Below, piece after piece: positions 10,621 through 29,401 of a DNA stretch of 29,401 bases; position 1 is the first letter of the stretch, and each line of letters starts with the position of its first letter. The translations under genes were made by a program, and so were the position numbers. Where the stretch lies: IMG/VR virus record IMGVR_UViG_3300020457_000059, positions 1 to 29,401 of that record; one strand, written 5' to 3'. The notes below the pieces were generated by a model, which had not been told where the DNA came from, ran no database searches, and saw only the letters and a list, made by a program, of their open reading frames with translations. The stretch is from a virus.

Positions 10621-10770
10621 TTAAACCTCCTGTGATTTTTCTAAATCCTTTTCAGTTATCAACCCTTTCATAGACTTAGGACTACCATTTGCTACCCAAC
10701 ACTTTTCACAAAAGCCATATGGTCGCAAGTCGGGTGTAGTATAACATAGACCGCAGTATTGGAACTTCAT
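10621..10770 (-). CDS. 49-residue zinc-ribbon microprotein
   Basis: This short gene reads MKFQYCGLCYTTPDLRP and continues with FCEKC, giving a Cys6-x2-Cys9 / Cys21-x2-Cys24 zinc ribbon, then a helical tail ending EKSQEV. Its ATG overlaps the stop of the LAGLIDADG gene (ATGA), and its last codons overlap the portal ribosome site, so it is embedded in the operon and almost certainly translated. Its ribbon echoes the inserts in the portal encoded next to it. Partner and function are unknown. Confidence 0.72.
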   Translation of the reverse strand: MKFQYCGLCYTTPDLRPYGFCEKCWVANGSPKSMKGLITEKDLEKSQEV

Positions 10771-22201: not shown

Positions 22202-22851
22202 TGCATTTTCTTTTTAATATCCAACCAAATATCGGGATTGTTTTGTGCAAGCACCTCTTGAACAATTTGCATTTGTGCAACAATAACAGTATCTTGTCGC
22301 TTATGAATAAGTTTGCCTTTGAATTCCATCAGATACTTTAGTGACTCTCTAATTTCTCTTGCTAACTTAGTTAGAGCATCAATCATCTTAGGGTCTAAGT
22401 CATTTCCTAATTCATTAAACACTTGCTCTAATCTCGCATCTAATTTCTCAACATTGTTAGAAAGCAAATCAATTTCATTTACCTCCTTCTTGGCAATTAT
22501 GGCGGCTGCGGATTGCTGCACGATTGGAGTTAAATGATGTTTCATATGTCGTTGAATTTGTGCTTTTGTAGTATCTAAAGCCAAAGCCACTGCTTCACTG
22601 TCTATCTCTCCATTACTCAATGCTTGTTCGTAATGTTTTCTCATTGGGTCTGTACATAAAACACATTTAGGATTAGCCGACATAACATAATCTCCCATAT
22701 GGTTTCTTTGATGTTGGGCCGCAGTTCCACTTCTCCAACCATTAGCCGCATCTAATTCATCACAAGTCATAGTACCGTTTTCAAGAGAAGCCTCTAATTC
22801 TTCTCTATTGTCTGCTTGACACAAACCACAACGCTTTCTATTGACTGCCAT
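22186..22851 (-). CDS. Candidate small terminase subunit with tandem CCHH HTH-like repeats
   Basis: The 221-residue protein has two copies of a roughly 50-residue zinc-HTH unit: Cys8, Cys11, His47, His51 and Cys63, Cys66, His102, His106. The pattern CxxC ... R..E..L..G ... RH..HH is known in phage DNA-binding proteins, including putative small terminase subunits. A helical region from 125 to 221 could drive oligomerisation. It lies upstream of TerL in the same operon but separated by many genes. It recognises DNA by inference; TerS is the best role but is not proven. No tag. Confidence 0.72.
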   Translation of the reverse strand: MAVNRKRCGLCQADNREELEASLENGTMTCDELDAANGWRSGTAAQHQRNHMGDYVMSANPKCVLCTDPMRKHYEQALSNGEIDSEAVALALDTTKAQIQRHMKHHLTPIVQQSAAAIIAKKEVNEIDLLSNNVEKLDARLEQVFNELGNDLDPKMIDALTKLAREIRESLKYLMEFKGKLIHKRQDTVIVAQMQIVQEVLAQNNPDIWLDIKKKMQEKLQ

Positions 22852-27227: not shown

Positions 27228-27253
27228 AAAAAAAATTGTGGCGGATTTTTTTT
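27228..27253. repeat. A-tract/GTGGCGGA/T-tract repeat, copy 1
   Basis: The plus strand has eight A, then TTGTGGCGGA, then eight T. A near-identical element lies 240 bp away. Read on the minus strand it follows the stop of the gene at 27253 and supplies a run of eight T, which could end or pause archaeal transcription. Confidence 0.5.
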
Positions 27254-27492: not shown

Positions 27493-27515
27493 AAAAAATG
27501 TGGTGGAATTTTTTT
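27493..27515. repeat. A-tract/GTGGTGGA/T-tract repeat, copy 2
   Basis: The plus strand has six A, then TGTGGTGGAA, then seven T. It shares the core GTGGYGGA between an A-run and a T-run with copy 1. It lies 22 nt upstream of the start of the tagged gene at 27471. A possible hairpin (GGCAC ... GCGCC) sits beside it. Confidence 0.5.
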
Positions 27516-27858: not shown

Positions 27859-28015
27859 TGCTGCGGCTAATCTTCATGATAATTAAAGCCAAAAGTGCTA
27901 AACAAGAGCCTTTAGAACCTAATATTTGAATGAGAAGCAAAAATAAAAATTTTGAACAAAGCCATATGGTTGTGCTTTGCATAACCCTGTCTGAAAGGTA
28001 AAGCAGAGAATAAGT
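27859..28015. promoter_or_regulatory. Divergent intergenic region with CCATATGG hairpin
   Basis: This stretch separates the leftward array from the plus-strand pair. No gene is supported. It has an A/T-rich part (27938-27953) and a hairpin with arms CAAAGC (27957-27962) and GCTTTG (27974-27979) whose loop holds CCATATGG. Two relatives of this hairpin lie at the right end. Control of the plus-strand pair by this element is plausible. Confidence 0.45.
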
Positions 28016-28345
28016 ATGGCACAAATTGATATTGATGCGGCTTATGCACTGATGAATAAAATACCCTTCAAGAGAGGTAATACAGTAGTACAGGTGTTTG
28101 ATGACGGTGGAGATGGACTAACTTCTGAAATGCTATTACATGGTAATGTAATTGCGTGGGTTACACCAAGAAGCGAACAACTCTGGATTAGTCACAGTGG
28201 ATATATGACACGCACTACCAAGAACAGATTAAATGCACTACCAAATGTTCACATCGTTCAACGCAATTATATGTGGTATCTAAACGGTACTTATTGGGCT
28301 GGAACAAATCAGTACATTGGTAACGGTATTCCACAGGTATGGTGA
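28016..28345 (+). CDS. Small conserved-type viral protein of unknown function
   Basis: The 109-residue protein begins MAQIDIDAAYALMNKIPFKRGN. Segments MLLHGNVIAWVTP, LWISHSGYMTRTTKNRLNAL, HIVQRNYMWYLNG and TYWAGTNQYIGNG resemble a common short protein family seen in marine tailed phages, recalled from memory, with no assigned function. It is beta-rich and aromatic. The ribosome site is weak. It lies on the opposite strand to the structural genes, with its own upstream hairpin, and is followed by a coupled gene. Confidence 0.75.
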   Translation: MAQIDIDAAYALMNKIPFKRGNTVVQVFDDGGDGLTSEMLLHGNVIAWVTPRSEQLWISHSGYMTRTTKNRLNALPNVHIVQRNYMWYLNGTYWAGTNQYIGNGIPQVW

Positions 28346-28350
28346 TTAAA

Positions 28351-28572
28351 ATGACACAAAGAAGAGATGAAAGAGTGCGCTGGATTTTGAATCAAATAAA
28401 AGGAGAGGAAAGTAATGACATTCTTAATGCCATGCGCTTTTCATGCGTTCTATATTTAGGAGAAGATGAAATAGAAGATAATAAGGACAAATATTGGACT
28501 GCTATTAGAATAATCGGTAGCAGACACGGCTATTCACATTGGCCCGTTTGGAAGAAGGGCTGGAAGCCTTAA
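28351..28572 (+). CDS. Small hypothetical protein
   Basis: From ATG 28351 the protein has 73 residues and begins MTQRRDERVRWILNQ. The preceding GGTGATTAAA is the ribosome site and overlaps the stop of the upstream gene, so the ATG at 28339 is rejected. The protein is helical with a Trp/His-rich end (HGYSHWPVWKKGWKP). No known domain. The structured element starts 14 bp after its stop. Confidence 0.65.
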   Translation: MTQRRDERVRWILNQIKGEESNDILNAMRFSCVLYLGEDEIEDNKDKYWTAIRIIGSRHGYSHWPVWKKGWKP

Positions 28573-28585
28573 AAATGATATTCCA

Positions 28586-28700
28586 CCACCCACTATAATA
28601 GAATCCTGTTCAGAGAGTTTGATACGGGTAGTAAACAATTGGAACTTGACTCCTAAGAAGCACTTAGGAGGGGGATTGTTGAATCTATTGTAGTGGGTGG
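28586..28700 (+). ncRNA. Nested three-stem structured element (candidate RNA)
   Basis: Three nested inverted repeats are visible. The outer arms, 28586-28602 and 28684-28700, pair over 17 positions with a single mismatch that is a G-U wobble in plus-strand RNA. The middle arms are AACAAT (28634-28639) and ATTGTT (28675-28680). The inner hairpin is CTCCTAAG (28650-28657) with CTTAGGAG (28663-28670) and a 5-nt loop. No tRNA signature is present. The wobble favours RNA on the plus strand over a DNA cruciform. It could be a 3' element of the small gene pair or the first domain of a larger RNA. Confidence 0.55.
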
Positions 28701-29401
28701 CCCAATAGGGAGTTTATTTCATTGACAAAGCCACTACCATATGGTTTTAACTTTGTAACAGTGAAACGAACCCTAATGAGACGCCCCGTACTCCATGCAC
28801 CCGTATTACAGCCCTGTGGTTCACACTTTGTCACCATGGCTCAAAAGTGCTACTACATTCATATCGGTCTTACAACGCGTGTTTCCGGTTTGTCCCACTA
28901 TGGTTTTATGGCCACTAATCGCCATAGGAATATAATGAGTGACATAGGAGATTGGCTACTCCTAATACGGATGGAATTGGGTTCCACTCACTTTGATAAC
29001 TTTCTAGTTTCAGAAAGCCCGTATACAATTGTTATCCAAGCCAACAGTTAATCGACTCCCCTTTTGAGGTTTAAGGACTTTCATCAGAGCCACTTACGCT
29101 ACGCAATTGCGCTTTGTAAATGGGTGATGTCGCACCACACGAAACAATTTACCTTACCCCGCTATCAAAGGGGCATTCGGTCAATGTCTGCCGGATTAAT
29201 TACTTCCAGCAATAATAACAGTGACCGCAGGTATAGGGTTGTACCATTTCATTATTCAAAGTTATTACAACCATATGGTTGCTTTGTAATTTACTTGCCC
29301 CATTAGTGGGGTTCCACGCATCCAAATGATACACAGAACCCCACAGAACTACCACACTTAGCACACAATAAGGTCATTGCTTGACCCCCTGTTGAACATG
29401 A
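28701..29401 (+). other. Non-coding, hairpin-dense region to window edge
   Basis: No convincing gene is seen in these 700 bp. Visible paired arms (plus strand) include 28725-28730/28751-28756, 28824-28829/28844-28849, 28898-28903/28922-28927, 28936-28940/28986-28990 enclosing 28945-28950/28959-28964 and 28973-28976/28982-28985, 28995-29000/29031-29036 enclosing 29001-29005/29012-29016, 29116-29121/29147-29152 enclosing 29123-29126/29133-29136, 29157-29160/29170-29173, 29178-29183/29222-29227, 29237-29242/29267-29272, 29264-29270/29284-29290, 29298-29301/29308-29311, 29306-29314/29336-29344 (9 bp) and 29372-29376/29382-29386. Some are mutually exclusive. Short stems alone are weak evidence; their density and nesting are what stands out. 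Confidence 0.5.

Follow-up and report, generated by a model that had tools for sequence, protein, structure and literature searches.

A conserved RNA fold downstream of two cassette genes in a magrovirus-like marine archaeal virus, a probable structured 3′ UTR element

Overview

The window, that is the whole stretch of 29,401 nucleotides analysed here, carries a large RNA fold at positions 28586-28700, and comparison with a homologous cassette indicates that this predicted fold is real and conserved. At a probability of about one half, the fold would be a structured 3′ UTR, belonging to an mRNA with two genes (28016-28572, plus strand), and would form or guard the 3′ end of that mRNA. Transcription of the region, the plus strand as the working strand and a protective or terminating action are what we infer from the sequence. 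The cassette belongs to an array of small cassettes separated by palindromic repeats, and the next cassette encodes a second structured RNA on the opposite strand.

The virus

The window, a fragment of 29.4 kb, encodes a terminase, a portal, a head protease, a major capsid protein and an ATP-dependent DNA ligase. The only relatives of the portal in the phage collection are from archaeal tailed viruses, namely HCTV-5, HVTV-1 and their kin, and from a Methanomassiliicoccales virus, and the relatives of the terminase reside mostly on contigs of up to ~97 kb. Near-complete relatives possess a PolB in two matched pieces and a chaperonin (GroEL in the one that was typed). Aoguangviridae and other Magrovirales, which are viruses of marine group II archaea, have genomes of 90-100 kb, a split PolB, GroEL, a ligase and a distant kinship to Druskaviridae (PMC10768690, PMC12999244, PMC5332604). 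The same set is found here, with the ligase and an archaeal-type portal in the window and PolB, GroEL and a length of 90-100 kb in its relatives; the likeness to Aoguangviridae (PMC10768690) covers genome size, the two-part PolB, GroEL, the ATP-dependent DNA ligase and the Druskaviridae-related portal. A search for the archaeo-eukaryotic DNA primase with the profile PF01896 alone was negative in all 15 records. Judged by gene content, the virus fits a magrovirus-like marine archaeal virus.

Structure of the fold

The fold consists of four predicted helices. The outer stem pairs 28586-28602 with 28684-28700 over 17 uninterrupted base pairs, with a single U-G pair on the plus strand, and the inner hairpin has 8 bp and a 5-nt loop (28650-28657/28663-28670); both agree with the initial annotation. 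The middle stem of that annotation is also present (28634-28640/28674-28680), but its length is 7 bp in the minimum-energy fold instead of 6 bp. The fourth helix, an imperfect 10-bp hairpin inside the outer stem (28605-28614/28618-28628), was absent from the annotation and appears in the minimum-energy fold. Beyond the outer stem stand a short CCC(AATA)GGG hairpin (28701-28711) and a U-rich stretch (28713-28722), followed by the cassette-border repeat at 28726-28755.

The fold energy is -48.5 kcal/mol on the plus strand (z -4.87) and -40.9 kcal/mol on the minus strand (z -3.97). No other stem of this kind in the window is as long as the 17-bp outer stem, and the longest one reached 15 bp among 240 first-order Markov windows of equal length and dinucleotide make-up, in which stems with at most one GU pair and a span of up to 140 nt were counted. 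The region is also free of a credible gene, with no ORF of at least 60 aa over the fold and the last plus-strand stop codon ending at 28572. Searching Rfam with the fold gave no match at the gathering threshold and nothing credible at a lax threshold, and a tRNA search found none.

Conservation of the fold in a homologous cassette

The single homologue of the fold resides on contig IMGVR_UViG_3300030107_003216 (termed L132), in a cassette that is 89% identical in DNA. L132 retains every pair of the outer stem (17) and of the middle stem (7): the outer stem has one double compensatory change, from A-U to G-C, and the middle stem has two, in addition to one change from A-U to G-U. One of the ten pairs of the 28605-28628 hairpin is lost, the inner hairpin is largely deleted, and the CCC/GGG of the short hairpin is kept. 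Thus, where compensatory changes had been anticipated for three stems, this one homologue shows them in the outer and the middle stem, whereas the inner hairpin is not conserved. Sliding the partner columns by 1-3 positions lowers the pairing between the window and L132 from 97.5% to 37.5-47.5%. The count of double changes alone is not decisive because there is only one homologue, and 59 of 500 shuffles of these two sequences reach the observed count.

Further analysis of the wobble pairs points to the plus strand. Three U-G pairs are invariant in the window and L132, and three A-U pairs have changed to G-U on the plus strand; all six would be A-C mismatches if read on the minus strand. The plus strand is therefore favoured, because the wobble pairs that are kept work on this strand only. 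The plus-strand fold is also more stable than the minus-strand fold in both sequences.

A third homologue was not found, as longer conserved patterns matched only L132. An exact-pattern scan with the arm of the window gave no match, because an A of the window is replaced by G in L132, and the phage collection contained no DNA match.

Position of the fold past the two genes of its cassette

The cassette begins with ORF1 (28016-28345, plus strand, 109 aa), which matches Pfam PF23790 (Kyano_Gp96) and phrog_554, followed by ORF2 (28339-28572, plus strand, 77 aa), which resembles the N-terminal half of cl0, the commonest gene family of the array. The fold begins 14 nt past the stop codon of ORF2 and fills the 3′ UTR of the two genes. 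Relatives of ORF1 occur in cassettes of many other viruses, and in nearly all of these homologous cassettes the last gene is separated from the repeat by a hairpin of unrelated sequence. At this place L119 has a 14-bp hairpin, and in L114, L118 and L120 a U7-8 run stands behind a C/G-rich hairpin. When all coding cassettes are taken together, 3′ UTRs have the stronger structure, with a mean z of -1.93 for the first 130 nt past the stop codon and of -0.42 for coding windows (p 7e-7); the sense and antisense strands differ only weakly in 3′ UTR structure (p 0.09). Unrelated hairpins at the same site, together with structured 3′ UTRs in general, therefore speak for a role as a 3′ UTR element and against an RNA with a sequence-specific task.

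The initial annotation had proposed a viral non-coding RNA. Its view of the region as a structured viral RNA is supported by the compensatory changes in the one homologue, and a compact, stable, multi-helix fold with such changes would also suit a small RNA of its own. This alternative is nevertheless improbable: the fold lies straight behind a stop codon, with no demonstrated promoter in between, and is known from two viruses only. A 3′ UTR element is the likelier reading because of the 14-nt distance to the stop codon and the unrelated hairpins that homologous cassettes carry at the same place.

As a 3′ UTR element, the RNA would fold, after release of the ribosome at the last stop codon, into a domain of four helices that the 17-bp stem closes, with the small CCC/GGG hairpin and then the repeat behind it. 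Its most likely job would be to form or protect the mRNA 3′ end, both by blocking 3′-5′ decay and by helping RNA polymerase to stop ahead of the convergent minus-strand RNA.

The main rival of the 3′ UTR reading is a two-way transcription terminator that would stop both the plus-strand genes and the minus-strand RNA. The layout would suit it, as a G+C-rich hairpin lies just past a gene (stem from 28586, stop codon ending at 28572) and between plus-strand genes and a minus-strand RNA cassette that converges on them and ends at ~28737. Both strands also fold better than shuffles, and three homologous cassettes combine a hairpin with U7-8. A hairpin past the stop codon, with the U-run behind it in these three, is a likeness to bacterial intrinsic terminators and archaeal U-tract terminators. 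The hairpin of the window is, by contrast, large and branched, and no U4 stands directly downstream of it on the plus strand (GUUUAUUUCAUUG), where the U-rich stretch is merely U3-A-U3; L132 has UUUU on this strand. On the minus strand five consecutive U come after the hairpin (28573-28585 region), but this run is found in the window only and is lost in L132. Moreover, the neighbours are not always convergent in other genomes with such hairpins, and the kept wobble pairs favour one strand, the plus strand. Archaeal terminators are U-tracts that are mostly hairpin-independent (PMC8716108), and termination alone is therefore not firm for a plus strand without U4. Altogether, a two-way terminator appears unlikely.

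Organization of the cassette array

Repeats of ACCATATGGT are clustered in 28 of 32 records and delimit cassettes. Where positions are listed, the cluster is one locus of ~2-6 kb, with two clusters in one 184-kb record (G017, 184733 bases); this record is twice the usual size, has two arrays and two terminase genes, and is possibly two genomes joined. In the loci examined the array lies ~15-20 kb from the terminase gene. It comprises four to ten repeats and cassettes of ~170-1400 bp. In many of the cassettes a single small gene with a ribosome-binding site is found, while others have no recognised gene. A conserved A/T-rich leader precedes the first repeat, and the order and orientation of the cassettes differ between viruses. 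In the window, the first repeat (27957-27979) reads CAAAG-CCATATGG-TTGTG-CTTTG and follows the leader, the second (28726-28755) reads CAAAG-n-ACCATATGGT-n-CTTTG, and the third is located at 29257-29286. The repeats are unmentioned in a magrovirus paper, and the array is undescribed as far as the few papers compared go. A non-coding nature of the array as a whole was rejected, since conserved genes that have a ribosome-binding site occur in most cassettes.

Several other elements were observed in and around the arrays. Two further CCATATGG sites stand outside the array of the window, one in the gap between two genes (10715-10722) and one at 22695-22702. Just upstream of the starts of two neighbouring minus-strand genes, a GTGGCGGA/GTGGTGGA motif with A and T runs on its flanks occurs twice (27229-27251 and 27493-27515). 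A conserved plus-strand gene of ~155 aa just right of the array (L151:5135-5602, L155:6472-6945) is a more distant member of cl0. The arrays of L122, L125, L126, L128, L130, L131 and L139-L143 contain many cassettes without a recognised gene or known RNA, some of which may be further structured RNAs.

The arrangement resembles integron arrays with attC sites, in which small gene cassettes also stand in a row between palindromic repeats, with a variable order and a constant leader. It differs in that genes occur in either orientation, some cassettes are non-coding, and the repeat arms covary across cassettes, not within a repeat. In addition, the profile of tyrosine integrases (PF00589) matched none of 14 related records, compared with 14 of 14 control genomes, and integron-like site-specific recombination was rejected for lack of such an integrase.

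Complementary cassette ends

In cl0 genes, a stretch of 8-16 nt that lies ~35-50 nt ahead of the start codon is perfectly complementary to a stretch just past the stop codon (4-25 nt after it). The match between the 5′ and 3′ UTRs of the same gene averages 10.25 nt, compared to 5.16 nt in other pairs (0 of 20000 permutations) and 5.65 nt against another copy in the same genome, so that the pairing of the 5′ loop with the 3′ UTR (8-16 nt) is specific to each gene copy. In cl0 genes of L112-L144 (for instance L116 cassette 4 and L126 cassette 3), the loop of a 5′ UTR hairpin pairs with the start of the 3′ UTR. The longest such 5′-3′ match in the cassette of the fold is 6 nt, and the arms of the fold pair within the 3′ UTR. 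The predicted structure of the cl0 protein is all helical (mean pLDDT 70, pTM 0.44) and indicates no function, nor was a function obtained from a PDB sequence search.

In L112-L131, the cl0 5′ hairpin is preceded by an AACC motif and then a TATA-like A/T stretch, which lies ~23 nt before the hairpin start. Its position is at archaeal promoter spacing, and each repeat may carry a promoter.

The ends of cassettes in general show a similar complementarity. The right flank of one repeat is complementary to the left flank of the next, with a mean of 6.74 for own flanks compared to 5.75 for others (0 of 5000 permutations, and likewise 0 of 5000 when permuted within genomes). By contrast, the two flanks of the same repeat have no excess complementarity (4291 of 5000 permutations), and pairing of the repeats with themselves was rejected for want of covariation. 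As the flanks pair across the cassette and not within the repeat, the cassettes are best regarded as paired units, for which pairing as RNA would be the simplest reading.

It is possible that DNA recombination homogenises inverted ends and thereby accounts for the complementarity of the repeat flanks. Extended to the fold, this idea would make it a DNA-level feature, with inverted repeats left by, or used in, the recombination that shuffles and flips cassettes. The varying order and orientation of the cassettes would agree with it, as would their complementary ends, which recombination between them could also keep alike. For the fold such an origin is very improbable, as the related records yielded no tyrosine integrase, the 17-bp arms lie inside the cassette instead of at its ends, the U-G pairs are preserved and are not favoured by DNA pairing, and the pairing of cl0 UTRs occurs at fixed places beside start and stop codons.

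More generally, the cassettes of the array would be units whose RNA ends stay paired or folded; the complementary cassette ends and the paired UTRs of cl0 also speak for the 3′ UTR reading of the fold. More tentatively, each unit from repeat to repeat, coding or not, could be made as an RNA with base-paired ends, perhaps for excision, closure or protection, with cassettes exchanged and flipped between viruses without an integrase. One such unit would then have the fold as its folded 3′ end, and its neighbour would be an all-RNA cassette.

The neighbouring minus-strand RNA

No convincing gene is present in the next cassette (28737-29271). Homologous cassettes from ten other viruses (11 viruses in all) fold on the minus strand into 72 pairs, 53 of which have double changes. 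The conserved core of this structured non-coding RNA spans 28941-29188 on the minus strand, and another of its hairpins follows downstream (28896-28928). The alignment has 164 double-change cells compared to 52 in shuffles (0 of 500 shuffles), and the strand is fixed by invariant U-G pairs. With a covariance model of part of the RNA, about a dozen arrays gave a match and others none; two more contigs came from a pattern scan. On these comparisons, it is a well-supported new structured viral RNA, with no Rfam match. It resembles the large phage RNAs GOLLD, ROOL and OLE (PMC12286853) in being a conserved structured viral non-coding RNA, but it belongs to another virus group and has a conserved core of only ~250 nt.

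This RNA is an optional cassette, separate from the fold and opposite to it in strand. The earlier suggestion that the fold might be the terminal domain of a longer RNA is therefore unsupported with regard to its neighbour, which lies on the other strand beyond the repeat at 28726-28755 and is found elsewhere beside quite different cassettes. The whole of 28573-29401, which folds well on both strands, was considered as one long RNA and rejected, since relatives show the repeat to stand between two different cassettes.

Biological implications

Messenger RNAs with paired 5′ and 3′ UTRs are known from icaR and RNAIII of Staphylococcus aureus and hbs of Bacillus subtilis, and the 14-nt 5′-3′ interaction of hbs protects its mRNA (PMC7821165). 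The cl0 genes share with the hbs and icaR type a stretch upstream of the start codon that would pair with one just past the stop codon; they differ in being a whole shuffled family in archaeal viruses, in which the pairing has changed copy by copy. The fold reported here differs from that type in pairing within the 3′ UTR only.

Viruses that infect the abundant marine group II archaea have been seen in metagenomes only, and gene control in these viruses is little understood. The neighbouring RNA can be sought at once in existing ocean metatranscriptomes. Base-paired ends are known from a few bacterial mRNAs; if the pairing is real in cells, archaeal viral mRNAs would have base-paired ends as well, as a modular and shuffled system.
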